Positions 9,919 through 56,059 of a stretch of 56,059 nucleotides of DNA are shown piece by piece (position 1 is the stretch's first letter; each line of letters opens with the position of its first letter). The stretch is from Acidimicrobiia bacterium (lineage in GTDB: Bacteria; Actinomycetota; Acidimicrobiia; Acidimicrobiales; AC-14), in contig JAHFUP010000028.1 of assembly GCA_023265025.1 (NCBI GenBank), positions 1 to 56,059 on the forward strand. Direction: 5' to 3'. The notes under the pieces are model-generated. The model was not told the DNA's origin, made no database searches, and saw nothing but the letters and a program-made list of their open reading frames with translations. Both the position numbers and the translations under genes were made by a program.

Positions 9919-9958
9919 TGGCTGCAGCTACGGGTCTATAGACCCGTAGCTGCAGCCA
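9919..9958. terminator. Perfect 40-bp palindrome between convergent hmgA and adnB
   Basis: The 20-base arm TGGCTGCAGCTACGGGTCTA is followed directly by its exact reverse complement, giving a 20-bp stem with no spacer. It begins nine bases after the hmgA stop. The adnB stop codon TAG (9936-9938) lies inside it, so the last AdnB residues AATGL are encoded by one arm. Tails on both sides are only weakly T-rich. A bidirectional terminator is the simplest reading. Confidence 0.75.
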
Positions 9959-17217: not shown

Positions 17218-17292
17218 GCGGACGTGGCTCAGTGGTAGAGCACAACCTTGCCAAGGTTGGGGTCGCGGGTTCGAATCCCGTCGTCCGCTCCA
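17218..17292 (+). tRNA. tRNA-Gly(GCC)
   Basis: A complete cloverleaf can be drawn. The acceptor stem is GCGGACG with CGTCCGC, the D arm is GCTCAGTGGTAGAGC, and the anticodon stem CAACC/GGTTG encloses the loop TTGCCAA with anticodon GCC at 17250-17252. The T arm contains GGTTCGAATCC. The 3' CCA is encoded (17290-17292). An integrase gene follows directly, so the 3' half of this tRNA is a likely attachment site. Confidence 0.97.
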
Positions 17293-24928: not shown

Positions 24929-26584
24929 TCAGGTGACCATCGGTTCCCTGGTCGAAGGCGTTGCGGTTTCCGAAGTCGTCGGCGCCTTTCGGCGGGACGC
25001 CTGCATGCCGATGACGAGGACGAGCCCGCCGAGCGCGAGGGCGACGGCTGCGCCGAGGAAGCCGGCGGCCCACGGCGACGTGCCCGTGTCCTCGCCGCCA
25101 CCGAAGGCCTCACCCGCCGGCGCGTACCGCAACCGGCTGAAGTAGATGTCCTGGCTGGCGGTGGTGGTGTTTCCGTTGCGGGTGTCGTCCCACGCGATGA
25201 ACGCCACCTTGTCGGTCGAAGCCAGGCCGATCGGGCCGTTGATCGACCCCAGCTTCGGGCCGAAACGTCGGTCGATGGCCCGGTCGTTGACCCTCACGTT
25301 CTTGGCGAAGGTCTTGCCGCCGTCGGTCGACGACGCGTAGTAGACGTCCTGGAAGACGGCGCGGCGGTCGCCGTCCTTGAACCCGGCGTCGTTGCGGTAG
25401 TCGTACCAGGCCACGTCGATGCGGCCATTGGGGGCGACGGCGAGGCTCGGGAACGTCTCGGGGAAGTCCCAGTCCCGCTTGGTGTCGGCGTCGTTGACCT
25501 TCAACGGCGTGCTCCACGTCGCGCCGTTGTCGGTGGACCGCATGAACAGCACGTTCGGAGTGCCCGCGCCCATGTGCTCCCAGGCGACGTAGATGTTGCC
25601 GGTCGTGAGGTCGACGCCGGGGGCGGCGTCGCCGAGCCAGTCCGAGGTGGACGTGGGCGTGGCCGGGTTCCCGTCCTGCTCGTAGATGGGCTTGACCTTG
25701 AACGTCTTGCCCTGGTCGGTGGTCTCGCTGAAGAACAGGTGGGCCGGCGGCGACTTGCCTTCGTCGACGGAACGGGTGGACTGGCCGAAGAAGGCGAGCA
25801 GCCGGCCGTCCTTCGCCTGGGTCAGGTACGGCTCGGTGGTGCAGTGCTCGACGCCCGGGGCCATGTCGACGGGCTCGCCCCATGTCCGCCCGCCGTCGAC
25901 CGATGTCGCGACGAACGGCCGGGCGAGCGCCCGGTTGTCGGTCAGCCGGCACCACGTCGACGACTCAGAGCTCGTGATGAGGCCGGGCTGGTTCCAGATG
26001 CCGTTGTTCGACCACCAGGCGACGTAGATCCGGTTGGGGGCGCCTCGGTCGACGACGAGTGACGGCATGGTGTCGGCGCCGTAGATCCGCTTGGCCGGGT
26101 CGGGTCCGATGCGCGGCAGCGCGGCCACGTCCCAATGCAAGCCGAGATCCGTGGACTTGGCCAGGTAGATCCGCTGTTGGTAGGTCGTCTGTTGGACGGC
26201 GCTCCACGTGTAGTAGAGGGTCCCGTCGGCGTCGAACTCCAGGTCGGCCATGGCGCCGGTGACCGCGAACCCGCAGCCCTGCCAGTCCGGGGGCACCGTG
26301 GGCTGCGTGGCAGGAGCCCAGCTCAAGCCCCCGTTGCGGGAGACGTGGACCATGCAACGCGCCGAGTAGGCGTCGCTCTCGGCGATGACCAGCGTCTGCG
26401 GGTCATCCGGGTGGACGGCCAGCGCCGGCGTGGCGTGGCCGCGCGCCGCGCCGGTGTCCTGCGTGACCTGGACGGCGGCGTCCCTTTCCGGGTCGACGAA
26501 CGGCTTCGCCGAAGCCGTCATCGCCGGCATCAGGAGCAGCCCGGCCGCCAGCGTGGCAAATACGGTCAATCGACGAGGTGTCAT
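24929..26584 (-). CDS. Membrane-anchored BNR-repeat (sialidase-like) protein
   Basis: A 551-aa exported protein. A signal peptide (RLTVFATLAAGLLLMPAMTASA) leads into a six-bladed propeller-like region with repeated Asp-box/BNR strands, such as SRNGGLSWAPA, STDLGLHWDVA, SVDGGRTWGEP, STDNGATWSTP and STDGGKTFAKN. A C-terminal helix (GAAVALALGGLVLVIG) with a basic tail anchors it in the membrane. The catalytic Arg triad of true sialidases is not obvious, so glycosidase activity is not claimed. ATG 26584 is preferred over GTG 26602 because AAGGGGG precedes it and the signal peptide then starts normally. A truncated relative lies at 19982-20674. Confidence 0.88.
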   Translation of the reverse strand: MTPRRLTVFATLAAGLLLMPAMTASAKPFVDPERDAAVQVTQDTGAARGHATPALAVHPDDPQTLVIAESDAYSARCMVHVSRNGGLSWAPATQPTVPPDWQGCGFAVTGAMADLEFDADGTLYYTWSAVQQTTYQQRIYLAKSTDLGLHWDVAALPRIGPDPAKRIYGADTMPSLVVDRGAPNRIYVAWWSNNGIWNQPGLITSSESSTWCRLTDNRALARPFVATSVDGGRTWGEPVDMAPGVEHCTTEPYLTQAKDGRLLAFFGQSTRSVDEGKSPPAHLFFSETTDQGKTFKVKPIYEQDGNPATPTSTSDWLGDAAPGVDLTTGNIYVAWEHMGAGTPNVLFMRSTDNGATWSTPLKVNDADTKRDWDFPETFPSLAVAPNGRIDVAWYDYRNDAGFKDGDRRAVFQDVYYASSTDGGKTFAKNVRVNDRAIDRRFGPKLGSINGPIGLASTDKVAFIAWDDTRNGNTTTASQDIYFSRLRYAPAGEAFGGGEDTGTSPWAAGFLGAAVALALGGLVLVIGMQASRRKAPTTSETATPSTREPMVT

Positions 26585-40892: not shown

Positions 40893-41098
40893 TCTAGTGC
40901 CTCGCCCTCATTCGTTCGCTTCGCTCACTCCATTCGGTCGAAGTGATCGTGCTCCGGCGGGCGAGCGGAGCTCGCGCCGCCTCCGCCCTGTCCCTCCCTC
41001 GTGTCCGCGGCCGGAGGGGCCGCCTTCGGCGGCGACGGCGGCCACGGACGGGAAACCCCACGAACGCGGCGAACGTTTGTGGTGAGGGCACTGACTAG
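40893..41098. repeat. ~206-bp dispersed repeat, copy 1 (MITE-like or structured element)
   Basis: It is nearly identical to 55737-55945: I count three substitutions and one three-base indel (TGA) over about 206 bp. It starts TCTAGTGCC and ends GGCACTGACTAG, so CTAG flanks both ends, with imperfect terminal inversion. Inside are strong hairpins, for example GCCGCC-TTC-GGCGGC and paired GCGAGC/GCTCGC. Short frames within it are not genes. It ends eight bases before the start of the STAND gene and may carry that gene's promoter. Confidence 0.85.
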
Positions 41099-42942: not shown

Positions 42943-43001
42943 GGCACCCCCCTGAACTGGTGACGATCGGACCGGCCACAGCCTGTCGAACCGTCACCAG
43001 T
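42943..43001. repeat. 59-bp hairpin repeat, unit A
   Basis: First of two direct repeats. Arms AACTGGTGACG and CGTCACCAGTT form an 11-bp outer stem. An inner stem is weakened by the one base that differs from unit B (CGGACCGG here, CGGACAGG in B). It lies downstream of the DEAD-box helicase stop and upstream of the DUF6069 gene on the minus strand. Confidence 0.8.
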
Positions 43002-43015
43002 TGAGCGCCGACGCC

Positions 43016-43074
43016 GGCACCCCCCTGAACTGGTGACGATCGGACAGGCCACAGCCTGTCGAACCGTCACCAGT
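43016..43074. repeat. 59-bp hairpin repeat, unit B
   Basis: Second unit, 58 of 59 bases identical to unit A by my count and separated from it by 14 bases. Here both stems pair: the outer arm ACTGGTGACG with CGTCACCAGT, and the inner GACAGG with CCTGTC around the loop CCACAG. An asymmetric ATCG/GAAC internal loop separates the stems. It ends six bases before the helicase stop codon. Confidence 0.8.
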
Positions 43075-43079
43075 GCGAG

Positions 43080-44510
43080 TCAGCGCCCTCGGCGCCGGCC
43101 CCCCGTGCCCTGGCGGGGAAGGCCGCCGCGGGCCCGTGCCGGGCCGGACGGCGAGCGGCTGGGGCGCTGCTGCTGCGGCGGCGTCACGACCGGCTGCGGG
43201 AGGTAGACGGGCTCGGCGAAGGGGCCGGTCAGCGCCATCGTCTCGGCCGCGCCGGGTCCGATGCGCGCCGACGCCGGCCGGATGCCGGCGAGGCGGATCA
43301 TCGTGGCTACGTCACGCGACTGGTCGGGCAGGATCACCGTCACGACCGTGCCCTTAGCGCCGGCGCGGGCCGTGCGGCCCGAGCGGTGCAGGTACGCCTT
43401 GTGCTCCGTCGGGGGGTCGACGTGCACCACGAGGGCGATGTCGTCGACGTGGATGCCGCGGGCGGCGATGTCGGTGGCGACCAGCACGCGGGCCGAGCCC
43501 TTGGTGAAGGCGGCCAGGTTGCGGTCGCGCTGGGGCTGCGACAGGTTGCCGTGGAGGTCGACGGCGGGGATGCCTTGGGCGGACAGGTCCTTGGCCAGCT
43601 TCTTGGCCGCGTGCTTCGTGCGGGTGAAGAGCAGCGTGCGCTCCTTGCCCGACGCCAGCTCACGGACGACGGCGGCCTTGTCGGCCGGGGTCACCGTGAA
43701 GGCGTGGTGCTCCAGGTCGGGCGGGGTGCAGTCGGCGCTGTCGACGGAGTGGGTGACCGGGTTGGTGAGGTAGCGGCGGACGACGAGGTCGACGGCCCGG
43801 TCGAGGGTGGCCGAGAACAGCATGCGCTGGCCGCCGGCCGGCGTCTGGTCGAGGATGCGCTTGACCGCGGGCAGGAACCCGAGGTCAGCGAGATGGTCGG
43901 CCTCGTCGAGCACGCACACCTCGACGGCGCCGAGCTTGCAGTGGCCCTGCTGGGCCAGGTCCTCGAGGCGGCCGGGGCAGGCGATGAGCACGTCGACGCC
44001 GGCCCGCAGCGCGGCGACCTGGGGGTTCTGGCTGACCCCGCCGTGGACGACGGCGACATTCAGGCCCATGGCCCGGGCGATCGGCGCCATGGTGGCGGCC
44101 ACCTGGGCGGCCAGCTCACGGGTCGGCACGAGCACCAGTGCCCGGGGGAAGTTGGGCCGGCGCACCTTGCCCGATGTGGTCAGGGCGACGACGGTGGGCA
44201 CCGCGAAGGCGACGGTCTTGCCGCTGCCCGTGCGGGCCCGGCCGAGGACGTCGCGGCCGGCCAGCGAGCTGGGCAGGGTGGCGGCCTGGATCGGGAACGG
44301 CGTCGGGCAGCCCGACTTCACGAGGGCGGCGATGATCGGCGCCGGCACCCCGAGGGCCTCGAAGGTGGTGTCGGCCGGTGGCGCGTCGACGACCTCGAGG
44401 TCGAAGGCGGGCGCCGGCGTCTCGACCCGTATGCGGGTGGCGCTGTGGGTGGAGGGCTGGCCGGGACGGCCGCGACGGCGCGTGGCGCGACCGGCGGGGT
44501 TGGTGGGCAT
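43080..44510 (-). CDS. DEAD-box ATP-dependent RNA helicase
   Basis: A 476-aa RhlE/CshA-type helicase that remodels RNA. Motifs in order: Q motif PFPIQAATLP, motif I ARTGSGKT, motif Ia PTRELAAQ, motif II VLDEADHLAD, motif III FSATLD, motif IV LLFTRTKHAA, motif V VATDIAARGIH and motif VI HRSGRTARAG. The C-terminal tail is Arg/Gly/Pro-rich, as in RNA-binding tails. ATG 44510 is chosen; AAAGGGA lies 11 bases upstream, directly after a strong leader hairpin. Twin hairpin repeats follow the stop. Confidence 0.93.
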   Translation of the reverse strand: MPTNPAGRATRRRGRPGQPSTHSATRIRVETPAPAFDLEVVDAPPADTTFEALGVPAPIIAALVKSGCPTPFPIQAATLPSSLAGRDVLGRARTGSGKTVAFAVPTVVALTTSGKVRRPNFPRALVLVPTRELAAQVAATMAPIARAMGLNVAVVHGGVSQNPQVAALRAGVDVLIACPGRLEDLAQQGHCKLGAVEVCVLDEADHLADLGFLPAVKRILDQTPAGGQRMLFSATLDRAVDLVVRRYLTNPVTHSVDSADCTPPDLEHHAFTVTPADKAAVVRELASGKERTLLFTRTKHAAKKLAKDLSAQGIPAVDLHGNLSQPQRDRNLAAFTKGSARVLVATDIAARGIHVDDIALVVHVDPPTEHKAYLHRSGRTARAGAKGTVVTVILPDQSRDVATMIRLAGIRPASARIGPGAAETMALTGPFAEPVYLPQPVVTPPQQQRPSRSPSGPARARGGLPRQGTGGRRRGR

Positions 44511-45035: not shown

Positions 45036-47749
45036 TATCCCGTGTTCCGGAGGCCGGCGGCGATCCCGTTCACCGTCATCAACAATGCCCGCCGCAGCAA
45101 CGGCTCGGGCTCGGGTGCGTCGCGGAGCCGGCGCAGCAGTGCCACCTGGAGGTAGCAGATCGGATCGAGGTAGGGCTTGCGGATGGCGATGGCGTCGCGC
45201 AGATCGGGGGACCGGTCGAGCAGCGCGTCCTGCCCGGTGAGGCTGAGGATCTCCGACTTCGTGCGCTCGAATTCCTCCCGGATCACCGCGAACAGCGGTT
45301 GCAGCGACGGGTCGACGAGGCTGCCGACGTAGTGGGCGGCGATGTCCATGTCGGTCTTGACCAGGGTCATCTCGATGTTGGCCACGAAGGTCCGGAAGAA
45401 GTGCCACGTCGAGGACATGTCGGCCAGGACCGCGCCGTGACCCAGGCGCACCGCCTCGGCGAGCCCGGTGCCCAGCCCGAACCAGCCCGGGATGATCTGG
45501 CGGGACTGGTTCCAGCCGAACACCCACGGGATGGCTCGCAGGTCGCCGAGGCCCCCCGGGCCGTCGGGGCGGCGGGTCGGCCGCGAGCCCATGTTCAACG
45601 CCGCCAGCTCGTCGACCGGCGTGGCGGTCAGGAAGTACTCCATCAGACCGGGCTGCTCGACGAGCGACCGGTACGCCCCGTACGCGGCGCCGGAGACGAC
45701 GTCCATGGTCGCGTCCCAGCCGGCGAGGACGTCGAGGGGTACGCGTGACTCGCGGTGCAGCACAGAGGCTTCGAGCACCGCGGCCACGGCCCGCTCAAGA
45801 TTGTCGCGGGCCACGCCCGGCAGCCCGTACTTCTCGGCGATCGTCTCGCCCTGCTCGGTGACCTTGATGCGCCCTTCGAGGGTGCCGTAGGGCTGGGCCA
45901 GGATCGCCTCGTGCGTCGGGCCGCCGCCCCGGCTCACCGTGCCGCCCCGGCCGTGCGACAGTCGCAGCACCACACCGTGGCGTTGCGCGGTGTCGCGCAG
46001 GCTGCGCTGGGCGCGGTGGATCTCCCACTGCGACGTGGTGATGCCGGCGTCCTTGTTGGAGTCGGAGTATCCGAGCATGACCTCCTGGATGTCGCCCCGG
46101 ATGCGCACGAGCTCCCGATAGGCGGTGTCTGCCAGGAGGCGGTCGACGATGGCGCCGGCCTGGCGCAATTCCTCGACCGTCTCGAAGAGCGGGACGAACC
46201 CGATGCGGGCTACGCCGGCGTGGACGTCCACCAGGCCCGCCTCGCGGGCGAGGATCACCGGGGCCAGGATGTCGTCGACGTCGCGGGTCATGGAGACGAT
46301 GTAGCTCTCGATGACCCCGTCGCCGAAGGTCTCGAGGGCCGTCCGGATGGCGGCGAAGGTCGCCATCGTGGTGGCGGGCTGCGCGTCGAGCACCGTCGTC
46401 GCACCCATCAGGGGTCGCCGGCTGGCCAGCTCGCCGAAGAGGAGCGCCACTCGCTCGGCACGGGGCAGGCCCGCGTACGGCACGGGCAGGTCGCCGAAGC
46501 CGTCGTAGACCGACGCCAGCACGGCGTGGTGGCGCTCGGCGTGCTCGCGCACGTCCATGGTGGCCAGGTGCAGGCCGAACGCGGCCGTGGCCCGGATGGC
46601 CCGGTCGAGCGGGCCGGCGGCCACCATCTCACCGCGGTGCTGGGCCAGCGACTCGGCCATGATCGTGAGGTCGGCCAGCAGCACGCTGGCGTCGAGGTAG
46701 TCCAGGCCCGGCACGTGCGCACCGCCGGCCCGAACCCGCTCACGGGTGTTCACCAGCCGCTGATGGATGTAGGCGCACTTGAGGCGGTACGGCTCCTCGG
46801 CCCGCAGGCGCTCGTTGGTCGCGTAGACGTCCCCCAACCGCTCCCGGTCGCCGGCCAGGTCCGCGGCCAGGGCCGGCGAGATGCGGACCACCCGCGTCGA
46901 GCTGCTCAGGTCGCGGGACAGGTGGGCGACCATGGCGAGGAGGTTGTCGATGGCGTGCTCGTGCTGCAGCCGCAGGACCCGGAGGGTCACCTCGGGTGTG
47001 ACGTTGGGGTTGCCGTCGCGGTCCCCGCCGACCCAGGTGCCGAAGTGCACCGGCCGGGCCGCCGGCGGGAGCACGATGCCCACGCGCGCCAGCTCCCGGG
47101 CCAGGTCGTGGACCAGTTCCGGGACGACGTGCCGGAACTGCTCGTCGAGGTGGTAGACGACCGTGCTGGCCTCGTCGCCCGGCTCCAGCTGCCCTTGCCG
47201 GAGCTCGTCGGTCTGCCACATGAGGTCGATGACCTCGGCCAGGTACCGGTCGTTGCGAGGCCCCTGATGCAGGAGCTCGGCGACCTGGCGCAGCTTGGAG
47301 AGCATCGACTGGCGGGTCGACTCTGTGGGGTGGGCGGTGAAGACCGGGCGCAGCTCGAGGTCGGCGACGACGGTCTCCAGCAGCTCGCGGGGGACGCCCT
47401 CGGCGGCGATCTTGTCGATGGTCTGCTCGAGCCCGCTGCGGTCCCGGAGCCGGCGCACGGCCAGCGAGTCGACGAGGTGGACCTGCTGGGCGACGTCAGC
47501 CAGGCGGAAGTAGGCGGAGAAGGCCCGGACCAGGCGGATGCCGGTCTGCAGGTCGACGCCGGCCAGCATGGCCTTGAGCTCCTCGGCGTCCCCGGAGCCG
47601 GACACCTGGGCGGTGAGGGCCCGGACCCGCTCGACGAGCTGGAGCAGCGCCGGCCCGTCCTGGCGGAGCAGGGACTCGGCCAGCAGCCCGCTCAACCGGG
47701 CGATGTCGGCCTGCAGGGCCGGGGAGCCGCTCGCCGGCCCGCGGGCCAT
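45035..47749 (-). CDS. ppc: Phosphoenolpyruvate carboxylase
   Basis: About 904 aa. This enzyme fixes bicarbonate onto PEP to make oxaloacetate for anaplerosis. Signatures are FTAHPTEST (catalytic His), GGDRDGNPNVTPEVT, MLGYSDSNKDAG, LSHGRGGTVSRGGGPTH, and KVTEQGETIAEKY. The C-terminus ends MTVNGIAAGLRNTG, the usual allosteric-site tail. ATG 47749 is preferred on family length; GTG 47779 is an alternative. A longer start at 47842 would place a strong inverted repeat inside the coding region and is less likely. Confidence 0.95.
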   Translation of the reverse strand: MARGPASGSPALQADIARLSGLLAESLLRQDGPALLQLVERVRALTAQVSGSGDAEELKAMLAGVDLQTGIRLVRAFSAYFRLADVAQQVHLVDSLAVRRLRDRSGLEQTIDKIAAEGVPRELLETVVADLELRPVFTAHPTESTRQSMLSKLRQVAELLHQGPRNDRYLAEVIDLMWQTDELRQGQLEPGDEASTVVYHLDEQFRHVVPELVHDLARELARVGIVLPPAARPVHFGTWVGGDRDGNPNVTPEVTLRVLRLQHEHAIDNLLAMVAHLSRDLSSSTRVVRISPALAADLAGDRERLGDVYATNERLRAEEPYRLKCAYIHQRLVNTRERVRAGGAHVPGLDYLDASVLLADLTIMAESLAQHRGEMVAAGPLDRAIRATAAFGLHLATMDVREHAERHHAVLASVYDGFGDLPVPYAGLPRAERVALLFGELASRRPLMGATTVLDAQPATTMATFAAIRTALETFGDGVIESYIVSMTRDVDDILAPVILAREAGLVDVHAGVARIGFVPLFETVEELRQAGAIVDRLLADTAYRELVRIRGDIQEVMLGYSDSNKDAGITTSQWEIHRAQRSLRDTAQRHGVVLRLSHGRGGTVSRGGGPTHEAILAQPYGTLEGRIKVTEQGETIAEKYGLPGVARDNLERAVAAVLEASVLHRESRVPLDVLAGWDATMDVVSGAAYGAYRSLVEQPGLMEYFLTATPVDELAALNMGSRPTRRPDGPGGLGDLRAIPWVFGWNQSRQIIPGWFGLGTGLAEAVRLGHGAVLADMSSTWHFFRTFVANIEMTLVKTDMDIAAHYVGSLVDPSLQPLFAVIREEFERTKSEILSLTGQDALLDRSPDLRDAIAIRKPYLDPICYLQVALLRRLRDAPEPEPLLRRALLMTVNGIAAGLRNTG

Positions 47750-54518: not shown

Positions 54519-55280
54519 GTGACCGGGCTCCGGGCCGGTGTCCGCAGGCGGCTCGACCCTGACGGCCGGTACGGCCTCCGGGTCACCCTGTTCGGCCTGG
54601 CGTTCCTGCTGGTCGCCATCCCGTTCGGGTTCCTGCTCGACCAGGTCAAGCGCAACGGCACCCTCGTCCGTCTCGACACGTCGGCTGCGAGGCACCTCCA
54701 CGAGTGGGTGCGCCACTCCGACCAGCTCGTCAGCGACCTCAAGTTCCTGACCTTCTTCGGGTCGCCGATCTGGTTCTACGTGATCGTGACGCCGGCGGTC
54801 GTGTGGGTGTGGCGCCGCGGCCACCGGCGCCTGGCTGTCTTCCTGCTGGTGACGGTCCTGGGCGGGGGGCTGCTCGACACCGTCGTCAAGGAGGTCGTCA
54901 GCCGGGCCCGGCCGTCGCTCGTCGACCCGGTGGCGAGCGCCCACGGGAAGAGCTTCCCGTCCGGCCACGCCATGTCGTCGACGTTCACCTACGGCGCCCT
55001 CCTGCTGGTGTTTCTGCCGGTGATCGCCCGGCGGTACCGCCCAGTGGCCGTCGGCGCCGCCATCGTCCTGGTGGTGGCGATCTGCTTCTCCCGCCTGGCG
55101 CTGGGCGTCCACTTCATCACCGACGTGGTCGGCGGCGTCGTCCTCGGGCTGGCGTGGCTGGCGGCGTCGACCGCGGCCTTCAGCACCTGGCGGGTCGAGC
55201 GGGGCAAGCCGGCGGTCGAGGTGACGGAGGGCCTCGAGCCGGAGGCGGCGCCGGACCTGGCAGTCGGTCAGTCGGGCTGA
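54519..55280 (+). CDS. PAP2-family membrane phosphatase
   Basis: A 253-aa membrane protein. PAP2 motifs are complete: KEVVSRARP (KX6RP), KSFPSGHAMSSTFTYG and SRLALGVHFITDVVGG. Six helices and the size fit undecaprenyl-diphosphatase-like or phosphatidylglycerophosphatase-B-like enzymes. GTG 54519 starts four bases after the preceding stop, so it is probably co-transcribed with DUF1206 and the PAP2-kinase gene. The 3' end overlaps the convergent cupin gene by 13 bases. Confidence 0.92.
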   Translation: MTGLRAGVRRRLDPDGRYGLRVTLFGLAFLLVAIPFGFLLDQVKRNGTLVRLDTSAARHLHEWVRHSDQLVSDLKFLTFFGSPIWFYVIVTPAVVWVWRRGHRRLAVFLLVTVLGGGLLDTVVKEVVSRARPSLVDPVASAHGKSFPSGHAMSSTFTYGALLLVFLPVIARRYRPVAVGAAIVLVVAICFSRLALGVHFITDVVGGVVLGLAWLAASTAAFSTWRVERGKPAVEVTEGLEPEAAPDLAVGQSG

Positions 55281-55600
55281 AGTCGGACGGCCAGCCAGCT
55301 GGTGGCCTCACTCGTCTCCACGACGGTGTGCCGGACGCCGGCCGGGAGGAACGCCCAGTCGCCCGGACCGAGCTCCAGCCGCTCGCCGGCGACGTCGAGC
55401 ACGGCGGCGCCGGCGAGGACGACCACCCACTCGTCGTCGTCCTGCAGGTACTCGTGCGGGACCGCGCTCGGTGCGCTCAGGATCTGCTCGACGACCAACT
55501 GGCGCACCGCGACGATCCCTTCGACGAGCTCGCCCTCGGCCGGCGCCTCGCTCACGGGCCGCAGCCGGCCCGCCGGTGTCGTGCCCATGACGCCGATCAT
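55268..55600 (-). CDS. Small cupin-domain protein
   Basis: A protein of about 110 aa with a single cupin barrel. Motif 1 is EYLQDDDEWVVVLAGAAVLD (the E-W-x-V-x-x-G type) and motif 2 is LGPGDWAFLPAGVRHTV, giving a His/Glu metal site typical of small cupins. The function is unknown. The start is uncertain: ATG 55600 is used, ATG 55588 is possible, and ATG 55654 or GTG 55669 would extend the protein through a structured region. Confidence 0.85.
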   Translation of the reverse strand: MIGVMGTTPAGRLRPVSEAPAEGELVEGIVAVRQLVVEQILSAPSAVPHEYLQDDDEWVVVLAGAAVLDVAGERLELGPGDWAFLPAGVRHTVVETSEATSWLAVRLQPD

Positions 55601-55621
55601 CGCGCCCGGAGGGATTGATGG

Positions 55622-55695
55622 GCGGTCCTCCCCTGACTGAGAAGTCAGAGCCATCAGGGCAACCTGCACGTCACACGAACGGCGGGGAGGACCGC
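55622..55695 (-). promoter_or_regulatory. Highly structured leader candidate upstream of the cupin gene
   Basis: On the minus strand, a 12-bp perfect closing stem (GCGGTCCTCCCC, 55695-55684, with 55633-55622) encloses three hairpin elements. They are a GCCGT/ATGGC stem that contains CAGG-TTGC-CCTG, and a separate TGACT-TCTC-AGTCA hairpin (55647-55634). A -10-like TACTAT (55707-55702) lies just upstream, so a transcript could begin at the base of the closing stem. I do not recognise the RNA class. It is the most riboswitch-like structure in the window. Confidence 0.55.
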
Positions 55696-55701
55696 TCCCT
55701 C

Positions 55702-55707
55702 ATAGTA
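55702..55707 (-). promoter_or_regulatory. Putative -10 box of the cupin transcript
   Basis: TACTAT on the minus strand, about seven bases before the structured leader. No clear -35 is present in the GC-rich sequence upstream. Confidence 0.4.
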
Positions 55708-55736
55708 GCGCCGGCGCCGGCGTGTCGCAGGGGCGA

Positions 55737-55945
55737 TCTAGTGCCTCGACCTCATTCGTTCGCTTCGCTCACTCCATTCGGTCGAAGTGATCGTGCTCCG
55801 GCGGGCGAGCGGAGCTCGCGCCGCCTCCGCCCTGTCCCTCCCTCGTGTCCGCTGCCGGAGGGGCCGCCTTCGGCGGCGACGGCGGCCACGGACGGGAAAC
55901 CCCACGAACGCGGCGAACGTTTGTGGTCAGGGCACTGATGACTAG
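55737..55945. repeat. ~206-bp dispersed repeat, copy 2 (MITE-like or structured element)
   Basis: Same orientation as copy 1 at 40893-41098, with three substitutions and one extra TGA near the right end. CTAG is present at both borders. The right CTAG supplies the TAG stop codon of the histidine phosphatase gene. Reading frames inside both copies encode near-identical Arg/Ser/Pro-rich peptides and are not considered genes. Confidence 0.85.
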
Positions 55946-56059
55946 TCGGTCTCGTTCCACCGTTCGAGGACCGCCGTGTCCCGTTCCCAGCCCAGGACCG
56001 AGATCGACGCGGTGGACAGCGCCAGCCTGGCACCGTGGTCGGGCGGGAGGTCGATCCAG
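55942..56059 (-). CDS. Histidine phosphatase family protein (3' end only)
   Basis: A partial frame that enters from the right edge of the window. The last 38 codons read WIDLPPDHGARLALSTAS, then ISVLGWERDTAVLERWNETD. This ending (taSvsVLGwe...RWN) is typical of actinobacterial PhoE/phosphoglycerate-mutase-like histidine phosphatases. The catalytic RHG motif lies outside the window. Its stop codon lies inside the right border of repeat copy 2. Confidence 0.75.
   Translation of the reverse strand, partial: WIDLPPDHGARLALSTASISVLGWERDTAVLERWNETD

Follow-up and report, generated by a model that had tools for sequence, protein, structure and literature searches.

Several kinds of structured bacterial RNA resemble the element described here. 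Metabolite riboswitch leaders, as represented among the cis-regulatory families of Rfam, are compact multi-branched RNAs that begin at a promoter and carry a conserved arm framed by compatibly changing stems, and the element is like them in these respects. It is unlike them in having no Rfam match, no constant downstream gene and no detected expression platform, and in leaving two unpaired bases in its predicted junction. With the standalone intergenic small RNAs of bacteria it shares a -10-like box of its own, a predicted length of approximately 75-90 nt, a stable terminal stem and a varying downstream neighbour, but it differs from these in its lack of a detected Rho-independent terminator or family match and in a very narrow distribution within the searched set. 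Surveys of structured-RNA motifs usually report more representatives than the three encountered here. Orphan candidate structured RNA motifs have been found by comparative genomics (e.g. PMC2864571, PMC6429828, PMC11109978), and like those motifs the element is recognized by its conserved structure without a known function. It thus belongs to a familiar kind, the narrowly distributed structured RNA candidate.

Structure and pairing of the element

The element was identified in a 56,059-nucleotide stretch of an Acidimicrobiia bacterium contig (JAHFUP010000028.1), referred to here as the window, where positions 55695-55622 of the minus strand very probably encode a conserved Y-shaped RNA (Table 1). 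A sequence-only reading of this stretch had described a perfect 12-bp outer stem closing a junction with two further hairpins, and on recheck its coordinates were exact. On the minus strand the two inner hairpins (P2 and P3) are separated by the two bases UC, and the predicted three-way junction contains only two unpaired bases. The same reading had placed a TACTAT box about seven bases before the structure. The spacing to the outer stem (P1) is six bases, and TAnnAT is found at an equal distance in all three genomes that carry the element, as TATCAT in G001 and TACGAT in G002, two genomes of the same genus.

Table 1. Positions of the element and of neighbouring features in the window
Feature	Positions	Strand	Remarks
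Cupin gene (Cupin_2), downstream neighbour	55268..55600	minus	start assumed at ATG 55600
P1, 3' strand	55622..55633	minus	pairs with 55695-55684, 12 perfect pairs
P3 hairpin	55634..55647	minus	5 bp, variable loop of 3-5 nt
P2 hairpin	55650..55683	minus	internal loops, apical loop GUGCAG (55669-55664); folding prediction
P1, 5' strand	55684..55695	minus	12 bp, from folding and pairing kept in three genomes
-10-like box TACTAT	55702..55707	minus	6 bases before P1
201-bp repeat between phosphatase gene and element	55738..55938	minus	absent here in G001 and G002
Histidine-phosphatase/phosphoglycerate-mutase-like gene, 3' end, upstream neighbour	55942..56059	minus	full gene on contig C177

In global alignments the element is 84-88% identical among the three genomes. 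Its flanks are 51-57% identical in five of the six comparisons; the sixth, the 5' flank of G001 against G002, contains the last part of the phosphatase gene and reaches 75%. The P2 arm is identical in all three apart from one unpaired base (55656), and 28 consecutive bases of the element are invariant. All 29 pairs are kept in the three sequences (87 of 87 pair cells standard, with no break). The changes in P1 are one two-sided exchange of C-G for U-A and one one-sided change of U-A to U-G, while those in P3 are one two-sided exchange (U-A/G-U) and one one-sided change. The sequence-only reading had made covariation in homologs the touchstone of the structure, and the outcome was suggestive but short of significance: two two-sided and two one-sided changes occur without a break, and a score as high was reached by 57 of 500 shuffles with the three sequences available. 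The pairing within P2 is a folding prediction only, because its paired positions never vary.

We also assessed on which strand these pairs are kept. Read on the plus strand, 71 of the 87 cells pair compared to 87 of 87 on the minus strand, as 16 G-U cells become A-C mismatches; the comparison used a structure obtained from the minus strand and is biased towards it. In three of the four variable pairs, one state is a G-U that would not pair on the plus strand. The variable pairs favour the minus strand, and the constant six-base spacing between TAnnAT and P1 in the three genomes likewise points to it.

The same bases could instead form a short conserved open reading frame from ATG 55703 (M-x-x-R-S-S-x-P-F-V-stop), for instance a leader peptide, with its start and stop present in all three genomes and seven of ten residues identical. 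We regard this reading as very improbable, since every difference within the frame changes an amino acid, none being synonymous, and since the start codon overlaps the -10 box, so that a transcript starting at P1 would exclude the frame. Near-identity also extends well beyond its stop, and one of the changes in the frame is exactly compensated in P1.

The Y fold was the minimum-energy structure in all three genomes (z = -4.88, -3.81 and -3.64). In the window, the energy of the minus-strand 90-nt stretch is -49.5 kcal/mol (z = -4.88), a value that none of 200 shuffles attained, and a 111-nt version gave z = -3.34, attained by one of 200. The plus strand has a comparable fold (-47, z = -5.18), so the strand is not decided by energy. 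When 90-nt stretches were taken across the window on both strands at a step of 45, the raw energy was equalled or beaten in 95 of 2488. In that scan z-scores were computed for the 150 stretches of lowest energy, and the element's own grid stretches were absent among the 15 listed. The window has perfect 12-bp inverted repeats (gap 3-60) at three places, compared to 0-3 hits (mean 1.0) in ten shuffles. Because similar energies recur in the GC-rich window and 12-bp repeats also occur in its shuffles, the stem alone is not beyond chance, and folding statistics by themselves were not accepted as proof; this agrees with a reading of the element as a chance hairpin. The element as a whole is above chance because it is conserved with kept pairing in two other genomes.

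Other stretches of the window with strongly negative z-scores, computed with 25 shuffles each, were noted at 46846-46935 (-8.2), 42976-43110 (-5.2 and -4.2) and 26371-26460 (-4.8). A perfect 18-bp hairpin at 9919-9958, TGGCTGCAGCTACGGGTC-TATA-GACCCGTAGCTGCAGCCA, belongs to a dispersed palindrome family found at approximately 30 places in the genome of the window; many of the 50 matches are a single palindrome counted on its two strands.

Distribution among related genomes

A BLAST search of 99 genomes returned, besides the element itself, two strong matches, both in the same genus (88% in G001 and 89% in G002). Fragments at E up to 1 were recorded in 69 of the 96 relatives besides G000 (the window's own genome), G001 and G002 (best E 0.004), and the nine read by eye looked like chance or coding matches. 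We then examined wider sets with R1, a covariance model of the three genus sequences. At E 0.1 it matched 6 of 397 genomes in the order, of which the three carriers scored 105-110 bits and the rest 23.5-30.4 bits, and 6 of 396 in the phylum, where the window's own genome was included and the others scored 22.4-28.5 bits; both searches scored only ten first-look candidates per genome and may have passed over a diverged copy. When the filters were relaxed and as many as 111 candidates were scored in each genome, E 5 was reached in 17 of 39 relatives and only three exceeded 26 bits. A 26-base core allowing up to three mismatches was found in two of 395 genomes of the class (G000 and G001), a sample that did not include G002. 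Among the candidates scored there was no convincing homologue outside the genus.

The best model matches beyond the genus came from G392, which has three copies located at contig starts, and from G360, at 30.4 and 29.6 bits. They apparently share one transposon end, and at the G360 locus pieces of a Mutator-family transposase lie approximately 0.5 kb away, while the frame nearest the match has no Pfam match. This resemblance would suit a reading of the element as the end of a mobile element, just as the 12-bp repeats in window shuffles would suit a chance hairpin. Both are largely refuted and appear highly improbable, as each of the three genomes holds one strong copy, located after the same gene pair, with most of the flanks diverged.

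Several other weak matches were rejected individually. One in G032 spans a gene junction, one in G020 lies inside a pterin-binding-enzyme frame, and loci L057-L061, at 22.4-28.5 bits against 105-110, were judged on their model alignments and, for L057 and L059, also on sequence. Two weak matches in a plasmid collection at E 0.9 fell in gspD of Variovorax and in a sigma-factor frame of Nonomuraea; the Nonomuraea match was at noise level with the model. The phage collection held no match to the element, and the viral contigs held no exact match of a 23-base core and no relative of the phosphatase.

The sequence-only reading could not assign the structure to a known class, and this stands: at the gathering score, Rfam 15 gave only a tRNA at 17218-17289 of the window across the window and the loci L031 and L002. 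At E up to 10, a 221-base query returned four chance-level matches, the best at 12.8 bits and far below gathering. No description of the element was found in Rfam, or among the papers listed on acidimicrobial non-coding RNAs, structured-RNA surveys, small RNAs at pgi or phosphoglycerate mutase, and DUF3072.

Gene neighbourhood and the proposed link to the cupin gene

The most constant feature of the surroundings is upstream, where a pgi-phosphatase pair precedes the element in all three genomes. In the window's own genome the phosphatase gene on contig C177 is preceded by pgi, and the final 121 bases of the window (55939-56059) are also the final 121 of C177; the two contigs are thus very probably neighbours, with the phosphatase split only by the assembly. 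G001 has pgi, the phosphatase (His_Phos_1), the element and the cupin, in that order. In G002 the pgi, phosphatase and element are followed by an oppositely oriented DUF3072 gene, a PMT-like gene, an unassigned gene, SpoIIE, the cupin and a convergent PAP2 gene. The DUF3072 gene ends three bases after P1 and no co-directional gene adjoins the element, which is still conserved with approximately 4.5 kb between it and the cupin (the cupin being at 5.4 kb). The cupin-PAP2 pair is common to G002 and the window genome.

We also assessed whether the element controls the cupin of the window genome and of G001 in cis, as a riboswitch-like or protein-binding leader whose connection to the gene has disappeared in G002. 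Such a leader is a possibility we consider doubtful. In its favour, the cupin follows the element in G001 and in the window, where its ATG stands 21 nt from P1, and the transcript would begin at P1. The element of G002 is also still upstream of the cupin-PAP2 pair, and the approximately 4.5 kb between them may be an insertion. However, among 148 genomes searched, the element precedes the cupin in two of the ten that bear one. At the other eight cupin loci, the one in G002 and those of seven other genomes, an unfiltered search of approximately 1.5 kb on each side gave at best 13.7 bits compared to 105-110 bits for the element. The element also stays intact in G002 although the gene that follows is on the opposite strand. 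A GGAGG in P1 has no start codon 5-10 nt further on in the three genomes, as judged by eye, a consensus scan of 55560-55960 gave no terminator alternative, and a GC-rich P1 of 12 bp would in our judgement make a poor switch. The earlier proposal of a riboswitch leader before the cupin was not supported: the cupin comes next in two of the three genomes with the element (a small sample), eight of ten cupin loci are without it, and no expression platform was found. That proposal had also allowed for translation of the cupin from ATG 55654, a frame that does run into the cupin in the window. In G001 the same frame reads M-A-R-T-F-L-V-stop; the stop after seven codons shows that the region is not the cupin coding start in that genome, and the frame from this ATG is not conserved.

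The constant upstream pair raises a different reading, namely that the element belongs to the 3' untranslated region of the pgi-phosphatase operon, or acts as its terminator or stabilizer, with the TAnnAT box coincidental. The pair is upstream in three of three genomes, the phosphatase stop codon lies approximately 15-16 nt before TAnnAT in G001 and G002, and the element of G002 is located between convergent genes. Nevertheless, we find this reading unlikely. Among 33 phosphatase matches, three were from the genus itself and three were outside the scan, and the other 27 loci held no copy in an unfiltered search (best 15.8 bits). For a terminator, a run of 28 invariant bases would be unnecessary, and the consensus scan of 55560-55960 gave no U-run. 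In the window genome, moreover, a 201-bp repeat stands between the element and the phosphatase.

The phosphatase stop and the -10 box are 234 bases apart in this genome, and the repeat lies in that interval, with its edge 30 bp upstream of the box. Because the insertion split the element from the phosphatase and yet left the -10 box and the element intact, a promoter belonging to the element is favoured, although decay may not yet be visible if the insertion is recent. The repeat looks like a recently expanded MITE-like element. A second copy is located at 40893-41094 of the window, and the genome contains at least 40 matches that span 175 bases or more with 95-100% identity, counting the one beside the element; scoring covered 40 of 367 first-look candidates. 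Most of 14 aligned copies have the sharp ends CTAGTGCC...GGCACTAG, with no clear target duplication by eye. In nine family members it was absent from G001 and G006 and partial in the other seven, the best-scoring being 77% identical over 123 bases in G002.

A candidate small RNA and what it may mean

The explanation that we prefer, with about half of our confidence behind it, is that the minus strand carries a gene for a small structured non-coding RNA of approximately 75-90 nt with a promoter of its own. A small RNA gene appears likelier than a cupin riboswitch because the element does not stay attached to the cupin. Transcription would start near 55695 from the TACTAT promoter, right after the pgi-phosphatase pair, so that the element would be transcribed on its own, and the RNA would end shortly after P1. 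It would fold into a stable Y consisting of the 12-bp stem, the strongly conserved P2 and the variable P3. P2 may be the working surface, contacting a protein, another RNA or a small molecule, and P1 and P3 would hold it up. We propose a standalone RNA with P2 as its working arm because neither neighbour seems needed, and because P2 is nearly identical while the flanks have mostly diverged.

Several observations count against this small-RNA reading. The consensus scan of 55560-55960 gave no complete promoter, no recognizable -35 and no U-run terminator. A co-directional cupin comes next in two of the three genomes, as for a leader, and in G001 and G002 the -10 box comes just after the phosphatase stop, as for a 3' untranslated region. 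More tentatively still, the element may represent a new small-RNA class, seen to date in one genus of the Acidimicrobiia, in which a near-invariant 34-nt arm on a rigid Y scaffold would act in trans, or as a sensor of a ligand or protein, next to central sugar-phosphate genes.

The wider importance of the element is modest, with three members and no phenotype. If it is transcribed, it would add to the structured RNAs of an actinobacterial class that has received little study. The gene order of G002 and the repeat in the window genome suggest that the element needs neither an adjacent cupin nor a phosphatase directly before it. If transcribed, naming a riboswitch after its neighbour would be mistaken here.
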